NCBI RefSeq assembly: GCF_000266945.1
Contig: NC_018025.1
Location: 1,798,001-1,862,000, forward strand
Reading direction: 5' to 3'
DNA from: Desulfomonile tiedjei DSM 6799
Lineage (GTDB): Bacteria > Desulfobacterota > Desulfomonilia > Desulfomonilales > Desulfomonilaceae
Length of the DNA stretch: 64,000 nt
Part shown: in pieces, positions 49,565 through 53,692 of the stretch
Layout of the letters: every line of letters starts with the position of its first letter
How positions within the stretch are numbered: the first letter of the stretch is position 1
The notes under the pieces: model-generated
What the model saw: the letters and a program-made list of their open reading frames with translations, nothing else
Databases searched by the model: none
Told to the model about the DNA's origin: nothing
Position numbers and translations under genes: made by a program

Positions 49565-49650
49565 TGTAGGATGTGATGAGCGAAGCGAATCGCATCGGTC
49601 GCGAAAGACCTCGACTGATGCGGTTCGCTTCGCTCACCGGCATCCTACGT
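49565..49650. repeat. Family E hairpin element
   Basis: TGTAGGATGTGATGAGCGAA and GCGAATCGCATC on one side pair with GATGCGGTTCGCTTCGCTCA and GGCATCCTACG on the other, around GGTCGCGAAAGACC. A second copy at 61648-61739 shares the left arm but has a replaced right arm. Confidence 0.65.
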
Positions 49651-49777
49651 ACCAATTCATCTAAGGCTTTGCCCTTCGTCCCGTTTCTACAGGAAGACCA
49701 TGGCGAAAATGTGAGTATCTATGCCATGTCATAGTACCTTATCCATTGACAGCCGTTCCATTCTCATGTCATTGTAG

Positions 49778-49791
49778 ACTGACCAGTCAGT
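49778..49791. promoter_or_regulatory. Operator palindrome before the second TetR gene
   Basis: ACTGAC-CA-GTCAGT is a perfect 6+6 inverted repeat ending 14 bases before the ATG at 49806. It shares half-sites with the operator at 3948-3986. Confidence 0.6.
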
Positions 49792-49805
49792 ACGAAAGGA
49801 CCTGT

Positions 49806-50402
49806 ATGCCGTCCAAAGGCGATATTACCCGAGCGCGAATCATTGACGCTGCACGAAGACTATTTCGTCTCCAGGGATATGCTCGGACCAGCATCGACGA
49901 TATCTGCAGCGAATCCGGTGTCAAAAGAGGCAATCTCTATTTCTACTTTAAATCAAAGGAAGAAGTGGCGGATGCTGCTATCAAGGATGCTCTGGACAAG
50001 CAGATCCCTTTTTTCGAGCAGATGATGGCAGACGAGACGGACCCTTTGAGAAGGATCGAATTGCTCATTGATGGCATCGTCGGATATCACGTAGCTCGCG
50101 GCTGCAATGCATGCTGACTGTTCGGCAACATCGCCCAGGAGCTGGGCGACAGCAATCGGGTGCTTGCTCAATCAGCCAATCGTTTTTTCGTGTTATGGGG
50201 CGAATTGCTTCGTTCTCATTTCGATCGGGCCAAAGCTCAAGGATGTCTCGAGCCCGATGCGGATACGGATGGACTCAGCAGACTGGTAATGAGTACCATT
50301 GAAGGGGCGCTTCTGCTCTGCAAAGCATCCAAGGATACGGAAGCTTTTAAGAAGACGGCAGAGGCTCTCAAGCAGGCAATCAGACCGGGAAGAGGAGCAT
50401 AA
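49806..50402 (+). CDS. TetR-family regulator with an in-frame TGA: candidate selenoprotein (or nonsense pseudogene)
   Basis: Read conventionally, the frame stops after 103 residues. Read through the TGA at 50115-50117 it continues in the same frame to 50402, giving a normal 198-residue TetR protein. The helix-turn-helix is RIIDAARRLFRLQGYARTSI, then DDICSESGVKRGNLYFYFKS. The C-terminal domain (LFGNIAQELGDSNRVLAQSA, SRLVMSTIEGALLLCKASKD) lies after the TGA. Many TetR relatives have a conserved Cys directly before L(F/I)GNxAxE; here that position is TGA, in the context GCNAC-X-LFGN. A SECIS-like hairpin follows at 50131-50149. Selenocysteine is therefore likely, though a recent nonsense mutation cannot be excluded. 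It probably regulates the three genes downstream. Confidence 0.7.
50131..50149 (+). promoter_or_regulatory. Candidate bacterial SECIS hairpin
   Basis: TCGCCCAG-GAG-CTGGGCGA forms a perfect 8-bp stem with a 3-nt loop beginning with G. The loop starts 22 bases after the TGA. Known bacterial SECIS elements have an apical loop about 16-37 nt past UGA with a G in its first two positions, which this satisfies. Confidence 0.65.
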
Positions 50403-50472: not shown

Positions 50473-51231
50473 ATGAGTTCCCACATGCTTACCGAATCAC
50501 TTACTGCATTTTTCAAGAACTTCAACGTCCCGGTTTTCGGGATCTCCGCGGCCGAAGCACTGGAGACGGAGCCCGCAGGCTCGAGACCCTCGGACCGCCT
50601 TGAAAGAGCACAAAGCCTGGTGAGCTTGGGAATGCCGGTACCAAAAGGGGTATTTCGCGCGAAAGAGGGGAGTGAAGCGCTGTACTGGCGTACGGCTAAT
50701 ATCTACTATCGTCAGATTGACGCTCTGGTCCTGAGAACGGCCATTTTCCTCGAGGAACACGGAGAAACCGCGGTTCCTGTGTACGGTTGTTTTCCGTATG
50801 CAATACGGGGAAAAGGCGACATGGTCGGAGATCTCGATCTCATCAAGGTCGGCGTTGCGACAGGAATAGGCGCAAAAGGTAAGAATGGACTGCTCTATCA
50901 CACGATGTACGGTCCCAGGCTGATTCTCGGCGGAATTATTACCACAGCGAATCTGGAAAGCTTCGCATGGCCCGAATGCGATCAGAAGGGATGTCCTGTA
51001 GATTGTTTCGATTGTCAGGATCGGTGTCCTGTTTCGGCCATTGAAAAGGATGGGAAGGTGAACGGGCCCCGTTGCACCAAGCAGTCGTCTGTGAGCCCAC
51101 TCTTTTCCCATATGATGAAGTCCGGCAAACCCCAGCCGAAGGAGCTTCAGATGCTTAACCACGTCACGGCTGTGGACGACCATTCCTGGTATTCATGTAT
51201 AGCCTGCGTGGCGGTATGCCCGCACATGTGA
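50473..51231 (+). CDS. 4Fe-4S cluster protein, epoxyqueuosine-reductase-like
   Basis: The protein has 252 residues with AAAGGAG upstream. The middle (VGVATGIGAKGKNGLLYHTM, then YGPRLILGGIITTANLE) matches the QueG-type region. Two cluster motifs follow: KGCPVDCFDCQDRCPVSAIE and, at the C-terminus, YSCIACVAVCPHM. It is shorter than QueG and stops at the last cluster. Its setting beside acyl-CoA enzymes argues for an electron-transfer or reductase role rather than tRNA modification. Function not established. Confidence 0.7.
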   Translation: MSSHMLTESLTAFFKNFNVPVFGISAAEALETEPAGSRPSDRLERAQSLVSLGMPVPKGVFRAKEGSEALYWRTANIYYRQIDALVLRTAIFLEEHGETAVPVYGCFPYAIRGKGDMVGDLDLIKVGVATGIGAKGKNGLLYHTMYGPRLILGGIITTANLESFAWPECDQKGCPVDCFDCQDRCPVSAIEKDGKVNGPRCTKQSSVSPLFSHMMKSGKPQPKELQMLNHVTAVDDHSWYSCIACVAVCPHM

Positions 51232-51284
51232 TTACCGACGATTGAAGTTGCCTTAATCAACAAGTCTTTATTGAGGAGGTGAGC

Positions 51285-52034
51285 ATGCAGTACGTGGAGT
51301 TGTTGCAGGAGGAAAATCTTGCCCTGGTCGCATTAAATCGAGGCAAGGTGAATGCGTTAAACGATGAAGTTGTCGGGGAACTGACTTCGTGTCTTGAGAA
51401 GCTTGCAGCGGACGTTTCCGTTGCTGCGGTTATCCTGACGGGGAAAGGAAAGTTCTTCTCGTTCGGTTTTGATATTCCCCACTTCATGAGCTACTCAAAG
51501 GAAGACTTTACCAGGTATCTGGAGAGCTTTTCCTTCCTGTATACCAAGGTGTACCTGTTTCCTAAACCGGTGATTGCAGCACTCAACGGTCATGCTATCG
51601 CAGGTGGATGTATGCTGGCAAACGCATGCGACTACCGGATAATGACCGAAGGAAAGGGAAAGATTTCCCTCAATGAGGTTACGTTCGGATCGTCCGTGTT
51701 TGCCGGAGCGGTGGACATTTTGAAAGCCCTGGTGGGATCGAGGAACGCTGAAACCATTCTTCTGGGTGGAAACATGTACAGCGCGGAACAGGCAGAAACT
51801 CTGGGGCTTATCGATCGGAGGACATCCGAAGAGAACCTGATGAGTGAAGCAAAGAGAATTGCCCGGGATTGCGGACGGCTGGATCGCAGAGCGTTTGAAA
51901 GCATAAAGAGGCTGCTCAGATATGAACTGGTAGAGCGATACAAGGAACGAGAGGCAGCGTCAATTTCGGAATTCGTCGAGATCTGGTATTCGGAAGAAAC
52001 GCGAAATCAGATAAAAAACATTGCTATTCGTTAA
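51285..52034 (+). CDS. Enoyl-CoA hydratase/isomerase family protein
   Basis: 249 residues from the ATG at 51285, with GAGGAGG upstream; two codons earlier a GTG is possible. Crotonase fold: ILTGKGKFFSFGFDIPHFM (oxyanion loop) and LNGHAIAGGCMLANACDYRI. The next segment, ISLNEVTFGSSVFAGAVDIL, has one Glu near the catalytic position. It is about 30% or so like the other hydratase by eye but clearly not the same gene. Part of the tetR-FeS-hydratase-MBL run; substrate unknown. Confidence 0.85.
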   Translation: MQYVELLQEENLALVALNRGKVNALNDEVVGELTSCLEKLAADVSVAAVILTGKGKFFSFGFDIPHFMSYSKEDFTRYLESFSFLYTKVYLFPKPVIAALNGHAIAGGCMLANACDYRIMTEGKGKISLNEVTFGSSVFAGAVDILKALVGSRNAETILLGGNMYSAEQAETLGLIDRRTSEENLMSEAKRIARDCGRLDRRAFESIKRLLRYELVERYKEREAASISEFVEIWYSEETRNQIKNIAIR

Positions 52035-52071: not shown

Positions 52072-52995
52072 ATGCAACCACTTGAAATACTACCCGATCT
52101 ATTTTTTATCCAGCGTGGTTACCTTAACGGAAATCATTTCGTGTACAGGTCGGATAAGTCAATCCTGATAGACACTGCCTATATTAGGGATTTCAGGGAT
52201 ACCGAAAAAGCGTTGAACGACCTGGGAGTAAACCTTTCCCGGGTCGAGATGATCGTCAATACGCATTGTCACTGCGATCACGTCGGTGGGAACAGGATTA
52301 TTCAGGAGAGATCCGATTGCCGAATCGCCATGCATGAGATAGGCAAGTACTTCATTGATATGAAAGATTCATGGTCCACGTGGTGGAAATATTACATGCA
52401 GGAGGCGGATTTCTTCAGATGCGATGTGGGGCTGAAAGATGAAGACGTGCTTGCGGTCGGTCCTTACGAGTTTCGGGTATTGCATACTCCGGGGCATTCC
52501 GCGGACGGAATGGTTTTGTACCACGAAGCCGAGAAACTCCTCATTTCGTCGGACACTCTATGGGAAAACGATATGGCGGTTATGACCATGAGAGTCGAAG
52601 GTTCCACTGCGATTTTTTCCATGCTCGAATCTTTGAAAAAGCTCTCATCGCTTGACATCAAGATGGTTTTTCCGGGACATGGAGACCCCTTTTACGATGC
52701 TCAGGGAGCTATACAGAAAACCAAAGAAAGACTTTTCGATTTTCTGGAAAATCCGAAACGGGTCGGCAACGACTTGATCAAGAAGATTATTATCTACACC
52801 TTGATGATGAAGAGGAGCATCGACGAGGAAACCTTTTACGACTATCTCATGACAACGCCCTGGTTTGTTGAAACCGTGGATCTCTATTTCGACGGCAAGT
52901 ACGAGAAGAAATATCACGATACCATGCAGGGCTTTTTCAGGCGAGGGATTGTGAAACGAAATTGCGGCACACTTTTTACCACTGTCAAACCGTGA
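52072..52995 (+). CDS. Metallo-beta-lactamase-fold hydrolase
   Basis: The protein has 307 residues. The metal motif HxHxDH is NTHCHCDHVGGN. Further ligands are in LHTPGHSADGMVLYH, SSDTLWENDMAVM and FPGHGDPFYDA. The C-terminal 100 residues are helical. This is the lactonase/thioesterase-like branch. It is the last gene of the apparent operon with the enoyl-CoA hydratase, so an acyl-CoA or thioester hydrolase is a reasonable guess. Confidence 0.85.
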   Translation: MQPLEILPDLFFIQRGYLNGNHFVYRSDKSILIDTAYIRDFRDTEKALNDLGVNLSRVEMIVNTHCHCDHVGGNRIIQERSDCRIAMHEIGKYFIDMKDSWSTWWKYYMQEADFFRCDVGLKDEDVLAVGPYEFRVLHTPGHSADGMVLYHEAEKLLISSDTLWENDMAVMTMRVEGSTAIFSMLESLKKLSSLDIKMVFPGHGDPFYDAQGAIQKTKERLFDFLENPKRVGNDLIKKIIIYTLMMKRSIDEETFYDYLMTTPWFVETVDLYFDGKYEKKYHDTMQGFFRRGIVKRNCGTLFTTVKP

Positions 52996-53149
52996 ACTCC
53001 GAAAAAAATCTTGTCCGCACCAGTTGCCGGAAACGAATCAACCTATTATTATCACACATAGTATCGCATCCTTTTAGTGCTTGACTGCGATCTCCTGCTG
53101 AAGTATTGTTCGACCACTTTAGAAGCCCCCTCTTCTGTGGGTGAAATCC

Positions 53150-53692
53150 ATGGCTGAACGTGAAGATGACGATCTTACAGTGCAATTGCTGACACAGTTA
53201 AGAGATGAAATGCGCGCAATGCGTGACTCCGTCGATATGAGGTTCGACTCACTTGATAACCGCATGAAATCTCTTGAAACGAGAATGATATCGCTTGAAG
53301 GAGCAGTTGGTTCCCTTCAGACGCAAGTTGATTCTCTTCAGACTCAAGTTGGTTCCCTTCAGACTCAAGTTGGTTCCCTTCAGACTCAAGTTGGTTCCCT
53401 TCAGACTCAAGTTGGTTCCCTTCAGACTCAAGTTGATTCCCTTCAGACACAAGCTGATTTCTTTCAGCGTCGATTGGACCATTTCGAAGCCAGACTCGAC
53501 AGCATGGAGGAACGAAACGAGACCCGTAATCAGGACCTTTTGCGTCGTTTCGGTCTCCTGGAATCAGACCTCAAGAAATTCGCCTCTGTTGCCAATGAAG
53601 CCATCCTGCATTATGCTGGGGAAATGGACTCTGTTAGGGACCGCGTACTGTACATAGAAAACAAACTCGGAATCCCCTACCCCAATGACTAA
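53150..53692 (+). CDS. Coiled-coil protein with perfect heptad repeats
   Basis: 180 residues from the ATG at 53150; a GTG three codons earlier is possible. The whole chain is predicted helical with heptads: MRDSVDMRFDSLDNRMKSLE, then seven units of (G/D)SLQTQV(A), then FFQRRLDHFEARLDSMEERN. A C-terminal part (DLKKFASVANEAILHYAGEM) is less regular. No signal peptide. It resembles small coiled-coil proteins related to chromosome or phage-tail scaffolds, but no partner is indicated. Confidence 0.75.
   Translation: MAEREDDDLTVQLLTQLRDEMRAMRDSVDMRFDSLDNRMKSLETRMISLEGAVGSLQTQVDSLQTQVGSLQTQVGSLQTQVGSLQTQVGSLQTQVDSLQTQADFFQRRLDHFEARLDSMEERNETRNQDLLRRFGLLESDLKKFASVANEAILHYAGEMDSVRDRVLYIENKLGIPYPND
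53309..53455 (+). repeat. Seven 21-bp tandem repeats in the coiled-coil gene
   Basis: Units of the type GGTTCCCTTCAGACTCAAGTT begin at 53309, 53330, 53351, 53372, 53393, 53414 and 53435. The central four are identical, the outer ones differ at a few bases, which suggests recent expansion by slippage. Because 21 is a multiple of three and seven, copy-number change preserves both reading frame and heptad phase. Confidence 0.85.

Follow-up and report, generated by a model that had tools for sequence, protein, structure and literature searches.

A TetR-family regulator gene with a predicted selenocysteine codon at a conserved cysteine position

Is the in-frame TGA in a TetR-family regulator gene a stop codon, or does it encode selenocysteine (Sec), and what might a transcription factor do with selenium? 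The gene lies at 49806..50402 on the + strand of the window, which is the whole 64,000-nucleotide stretch of DNA that we analysed (G000:C1:1798001-1862000, where G000 is the window's genome, with 6,527,027 bases in 2 contigs). The TGA is codon 104, at 50115..50117 on the + strand. We propose that the gene encodes a TetR repressor in which UGA 104 would be read as Sec by the host's machinery and a hairpin, and that the selenolate would be an oxidant or electrophile sensor for a small acyl-CoA operon. We put the probability of this reading at roughly 0.7.

The initial annotation held that the frame is otherwise complete, and we agree: 49806-50402 encodes one protein of 198 residues in which codon 104 is the only TGA. 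If the TGA is not recoded, the list of open reading frames contains a 123-amino-acid stub (from an upstream TTG start) and a separate 80-amino-acid fragment instead. Annotation with the standard code will therefore split this type of gene into a stub and a fragment.

The protein has both parts of a TetR-family regulator. In Pfam, the HTH domain TetR_N (PF00440) matches residues 12-57 (E = 4.5e-17) and TetR_C_13 (PF16925) matches residues 80-187, bridging the TGA (E = 2.6e-14); both matches are over their cut-offs. An AlphaFold2 model, with Cys replacing Sec, has the TetR fold with a helical C-terminal domain (mean pLDDT of 92.7), and its Foldseek matches are TetR regulators, with reduced NemR (4yze) at rank 27 (TM 0.78/0.82). 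Domain family and fold are shared with the Cys-type TetR_C_13 regulators (such as 3bru, 3qbm, and AcuR-like proteins), which differ in lacking the TGA and mostly have Cys in the codon-104 column. In the model, residue 104 immediately precedes the helix at 105-113. Thiols and selenols at such a pre-helix position usually have a lowered pKa.

If UGA 104 encodes Sec, then homologous proteins should have Cys at this position, as was first suggested from the sequence of this gene. Using tblastn against fetched loci, with hits required to span residues 97-112 and identical 39-base sites merged, we found 111 distinct sites: Cys at 98, TGA at 10, and another residue at 3. In other words, 98 of the 101 non-TGA sites have Cys, and UGA faces Cys in the homologues, as for bacterial selenoproteins. 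The motif at this column is typically U/C-[LFIP]-x-G-N-x-A-x-E.

The annotation also asked whether other genomes have TGA at the same codon, and they do. There are ten TGA genes in eight genomes from two families (one each in G000, G012, G017, G006, G016, and G075, and two each in G011 and G007). In a search of 42 genomes from the class, the closest genes with one TGA each were in G011 (82%), G012 (68%), G007 (59%), and G017 (57%); we will call these the main clade, along with the window gene. The main-clade orthologue in G016 (57%) has TGC, not TGA. A second, paralogous clade has TGA in G011, G007, G006, and G016 (the copies from G007 and G016 are broken off at contig ends). A third case, in G075, is from a different family of the same phylum; it came from a search of 395 genomes of the phylum, in which 19 matched with E <= 1e-24. 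Within the named collection, the nearest relative (82% identical) is from a MAG labelled Desulfomonile tiedjei, which fits the expectation that the host is a sulfate-reducing deltaproteobacterium. The genome searches covered the host's own phylum, and other phyla are represented by 80 loci that were kept from the search of the named collection.

We also considered that the TGA might be a true stop, so that the gene would be a pseudogene or would deliberately encode a truncated HTH protein of 103 residues. TGA is formally a stop codon, and a complete HTH domain lies within the first 60 residues. But the same TGA recurs at the Cys column in ten genes. A profile search of the 395 phylum genomes (E <= 1e-32) matched 75, with TGA at the site in G000, G012, G017, and G075; the only other stop-bearing genes among the matches listed were from G042 (TGA) and G092 (TAG). 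We dropped both as cases: in G042, the TGA precedes the start codon and the column is Cys, and in G092, the stop is TAG and lies elsewhere in the gene.

Nei-Gojobori counts for three pairs of genes show that purifying selection is similar on both sides of the TGA. For the window gene and its relative in G011, pN/pS was 0.107/0.955 before the TGA and 0.148/0.700 after it; for the window gene and G012, 0.185/0.751 before and 0.193/0.673 after; and for G017 and G007, 0.195/0.791 before and 0.204/0.788 after (the ratios are rough because synonymous sites are near saturation). So, the part after the TGA is plainly under purifying selection. Together with the hairpin described below, which also recurs, these observations make a true stop very improbable.

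Bacterial selenoprotein genes carry a hairpin (the bSECIS element) downstream of the UGA, and a perfect 8-bp hairpin with a G-first loop of 3 nt had been noticed here. It is at 50131..50149 on the + strand (TCGCCCAG-GAG-CTGGGCGA). As first reported, the stem starts 13 nt past the TGA, on the 14th base, and the GAG loop starts 21 nt past it, on the 22nd base. Published limits for bSECIS elements are a loop of 3-9 nt, a stem of 4-16 bp, G in the first two loop positions, a spacing of 16-37 nt, and a minimum free energy of at most -7.5 kcal/mol (PMC13188914, consulted in part). We applied these limits by script, and the window gene (spacing 21, stem 8, loop GAG, -14.8 kcal/mol) is within all of them. 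On its own, the hairpin is unusual without being conclusive: counting both strands, the window has 2284 TGA triplets, and 12 of them (0.5%, including codon 104) are followed by a perfect 8-bp hairpin that starts 8-21 nt after the TGA and has a loop of 3-8 nt.

A stronger argument is that the hairpin recurs in the other TGA genes, always at one fixed distance. The published limits hold for nine of the ten TGA genes, as compared to 20 of the 101 non-TGA sites (the other 81 lack a hairpin inside the limits). The exception among the TGA genes, at L101, is a weak case. The hairpin sits within conserved codons. We compared Watson-Crick pairing in the fixed register to a null of uniform synonymous-codon choice. 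Pairing exceeded the null (p < 0.05) in all ten TGA genes and, among the 98 Cys genes, in 7. On average, 6.5 of the 8 positions pair in TGA genes (3.27 under the null), versus 3.72 in Cys genes (3.25 under the null). The ten TGA genes are related to one another, and the window gene's own p value is not independent because the register was taken from the window. With nine genes inside the limits and ten above the null, the stem does appear to be conserved where TGA is kept, which was a stated test of the Sec prediction.

Formal covariation is thin, because four of the six pairs of the core stem are invariant across the ten TGA genes and only one is changed on both sides. In the alignment of these ten sequences, 93.3% of cells are paired, and pair 21-31 is C-G in five genes, U-A in four, and unpaired in one, which is one compensatory change. 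Of 500 shuffles, 12 reached the observed covariation score, 44 reached the percentage paired, and 400 reached the number of doubly changed pairs. Despite this, the double change is telling. Where the codon on the 3' side is AGC (Ser), it faces the Ala codon GCT, with which it pairs, in four of five TGA genes (three from the second clade and the one from G075). Among the nine Cys genes with AGC, none has GCT as the facing Ala codon (eight have GCC and one has GCG).

Does the host decode UGA as Sec? The annotation had asked for selA, selB, selC, and selD, and all four are in the host's genome: selA (599 bits), selB (404.5 bits), selD (367.6 bits), and selC, a tRNA-Sec with anticodon TCA (69.5 bits). 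We checked 18 further genomes, comprising the seven other TGA hosts (G006, G007, G011, G012, G016, G017, and G075) and 11 family members, for selB and tRNA-Sec only. SelB was over the cut-off in all 18 and tRNA-Sec in 16, including 7/7 for both genes in the TGA hosts; the two without tRNA-Sec (G003 and G008) have no TGA copy in our set. Anticodons were read in the host's own genome only. Among 14 well-known control genomes, selB passes in two and the tRNA-Sec model passes in five, so the tRNA-Sec model overcalls.

The conservation after the TGA demands read-through, which could in principle insert another amino acid such as Trp, or reflect a general change in the genetic code. But the aligned residue is Cys at 98 of 101 non-TGA sites, the host has the Sec machinery, the gene has a SECIS-like hairpin, and neighbouring genes are full-length under table 11. 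We consider this explanation even less probable than a true stop. Overall, we reject a pseudogene, a true stop, and Trp read-through because of selection, the identity of the column, and the hairpin, and the gene and RNA evidence strongly favours the prediction that UGA 104 is decoded as Sec. The annotation had named three results that would count against Sec (no selB or selC in the host, sense codons other than Cys in close relatives, and loss of the stem where TGA is kept); we checked for all three, and none of the outcomes refutes it.

We noticed two other features of Sec decoding in these genomes. First, a second tRNA-Sec-like gene in the host, with anticodon GCA (for Cys codons), is directly 5' of another selB copy, whose frame is open (G000:C1:3562734-3564838; L002, L184). 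There is a similar pair in G011 (G011:C38:573-1894), where the selB match is partial. Some bacteria use Cys codons with anticodon variants of tRNA-Sec (PMC8124441, consulted in part). We rejected this second SelB and tRNA as the decoder of TGA 104, as such a tRNA reads Cys codons. Second, the host's selD (L149, G000:C1:3873142-3874065) has an in-frame TGA with a hairpin-folding stretch downstream, so SelD is itself likely to contain Sec.

How often did TGA arise at this column? We mapped the TGA label onto a maximum-likelihood tree of 109 proteins. It requires four changes there (the mean for shuffled labels is 9.6), and the starred branches force at least three. The simplest reading is three gains (in the main clade, in the paralogous clade, and in G075) plus a single reversion to Cys in G016, but gains and losses could also be combined in other ways. 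G016 carries selB and tRNA-Sec, so the TGC in its main-clade gene is not due to lost Sec decoding. G016 thus has two paralogues of opposite kind, a main-clade gene with TGC and a second-clade gene with TGA. Natural Sec and Cys versions, including these paralogues, offer a ready comparison.

A clue to the role of residue 104 is NemR from E. coli (sequence from NC_000913.3). NemR is similar to the window protein from end to end, with a profile match of E = 1.1e-25, although the identity is only 17%. NemR responds to HOCl via a bond between Cys106 and Lys175, while its Cys21 and Cys116 serve electrophiles (PMC7464077, consulted in part). By positions counted on our alignment, Sec104 aligns with Cys106 and Lys173 aligns with Lys175, so the window protein has a predicted Sec in place of the reactive Cys and retains the Lys. 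In contrast, the window protein has Phe opposite Cys21 and Gly opposite Cys116. From this alignment, we infer that the window protein may be a redox sensor.

Sec104 has two potential partners. The main clade and G075 retain Lys173; the three second-clade members that are long enough have Arg instead. Cys100, which could form a CxxxU pair with Sec104, is present in the five Sec genes of the main clade and in G075, and is replaced by Ser in the Cys-type orthologue from G016 and by Phe in the second clade. So, neither partner accounts for all of the Sec proteins.

NemR and the window gene also resemble each other upstream. A candidate palindromic operator, TAGACTGACCAGTCAGTAC, lies at 49775..49793 (+ strand), just 5' of the gene, and resembles the palindrome 5' of E. 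coli nemR (TAGACCGACTGGTCTA). Reading by eye, we saw similar palindromes 5' of the relatives. With up to three mismatches, the TAGACTGACCAGTCAGTAC pattern has a single match in the window and in the whole of the host's genome, which hints that the repressor is local and autoregulating (a looser operator could escape this search, and a reversed control pattern also has one match in this genome). TTGACA at 49746..49751 (+ strand), found by eye, is a possible -35 element, and main-clade relatives have a like placement; this assignment is weak because a promoter scan listed no promoter at either the operator or the TTGACA site.

The neighbouring genes set the window gene apart from nemR, which adjoins nemA-gloA in E. 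coli. Those described here for the window are all on the + strand. The next gene (50473..51231) encodes a protein of 252 amino acids with a 4Fe-4S double-cluster domain (Fer4_16, scoring 29.5 bits where the cut-off is 30), and is probably co-transcribed with the TetR gene. It is followed by an enoyl-CoA hydratase/isomerase (ECH_1, 51279..52034) and a metallo-beta-lactamase-fold hydrolase (Lactamase_B, 52072..52995). Because these neighbours are not nemA or gloA, we do not classify the window gene as NemR.

The neighbouring genes vary between genomes. In G012, the hydratase and the hydrolase are retained near the TetR gene (59% and 60% identical), behind a DUF3795 protein. In G007, the TetR gene adjoins an enoyl-CoA hydratase, and in G017, it is near two 2-hydroxyglutaryl-CoA dehydratase D-component proteins. 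In the second clade, the Sec-TetR of G011 precedes a fusion of VTT and pyridine-nucleotide-disulphide reductase (L119:5632-8701, G011:C203), which is possibly a different target for this paralogue. Acyl-CoA chemistry and redox recur among these neighbours, which makes reactive unsaturated acyl-CoAs or quinones plausible as the signals. By eye, we also noticed a small reading frame resembling glutaredoxin after the Sec-TetR of G075 (L147, about 2112-2290).

We propose the following mechanism. UGA 104 would be translated as Sec through SelA, SelB, SelC, SelD, and the hairpin that starts 13 nt downstream. The repressor would bind the candidate palindrome just 5' of its own gene and would repress that gene along with those for the 4Fe-4S protein, the enoyl-CoA hydratase, and the metallo-beta-lactamase-fold hydrolase. 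The selenolate of Sec104, at the start of a helix, would be the sensing residue for oxidants or reactive electrophiles, as NemR and residue conservation suggest. Its reaction could yield a bond to Lys173 (Se-N; compare to Cys106-Lys175 of NemR) or to Cys100 (Se-S), or else a covalent adduct. By the same reasoning, the modified repressor would leave the DNA and the operon would turn on. Under selenium starvation, UGA would terminate translation, and from the structure of the gene, the predicted product is a fragment of 103 residues that lacks most of the C-terminal domain.

Alternatively, UGA 104 might encode Sec that has no role in sensing. In this scenario, Sec would be a neutral replacement for Cys in Sec-rich anaerobes, and the ligand would be an ordinary one such as an acyl-CoA. 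Acyl-CoA enzymes do adjoin the TetR genes of G000, G012, G007, and G017. Also, models for AcuR and FadR matched the window protein, both far below their own cut-offs, and FadR structures were among the structural matches. The absence of Lys173 and Cys100 from some of the Sec proteins fits as well. However, at least three separate changes of label at one column, and the near-invariance of Cys in that column, suit a reactive residue better than drift. We think that a non-sensing Sec is rather unlikely, and prefer the sensor. A broader proposal, which we make only tentatively, is that these proteins form a class of selenium-dependent TetR factors with at least three origins at one column, which would sense oxidants or electrophiles (perhaps unsaturated acyl-CoAs or quinones). 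An Se-N switch with Lys173 or an Se-S switch with Cys100 would turn the operon on upon oxidation, and selenium shortage would do so as well, because the UGA would couple repression to the selenium supply.

Are Sec-containing regulators already known? A 2022 catalogue has 87 selenoprotein families (PMC9312934), and Table 1 of a 2026 catalogue has 119 prokaryotic families or subfamilies (PMC13188914). In the parts of these catalogues that we consulted, the entries are enzymes, redox proteins, transporters, and proteins of unknown function; there is no TetR or other HTH regulator, and the nearest name, and the only "regulatory" entry, is "putative regulatory protein, FmdB family". The window gene has the Sec/Cys pair, the bSECIS element, and the Sec-decoding host in common with the catalogued bacterial selenoproteins (PMC13188914, in part), but they lack a regulator of this kind. 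Neither deep-Sep (PMC12013277) nor a survey of 5200 genomes (PMC5029168) mentions TetR in its main text, and PMC8318568 does not mention it either. No report of a Sec-containing TetR was among the matches listed in the literature search, which covered main texts in part, with few subscription papers and without bioRxiv preprints.

A related precedent is a cluster of TetR proteins from Methanosarcina (MA2902), which also have a conserved in-frame stop codon (PMC1914089 and PMC3639795, both consulted in part). There, the codon is TAG and the candidate residue is pyrrolysine, in an archaeon, as opposed to TGA and Sec in bacteria; pyrrolysine in MA2902 is stated to be uncertain (PMC1914089, same portion). 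Given that there was no match for a Sec-TetR in the catalogues or the literature searched, we view the window protein, relative to that literature, as a new predicted family of selenoproteins: a regulator like the TetR thiol switches, with Sec for Cys. If the residue is Sec, as it appears to be, this would be the first selenium-based DNA-binding regulator as compared to the published catalogues, in the parts examined. A Sec-based repressor, if true, would bring selenium chemistry into gene control. It also raises the question of why a sensor, and not a catalyst, needs Sec: for a faster reaction, for resistance to over-oxidation, or for coupling to the selenium supply.

We also noticed two other features of the window. 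Upstream (5') of the TetR gene, at 49577-49636, is an inverted repeat with arms of 25 nt that are 92% complementary and 10 nt apart; perhaps it is a small mobile or REP-like element. And an open reading frame at 53141-53692 has tandem seven-residue repeats (SLQTQVG) and is likely to form a coiled coil.
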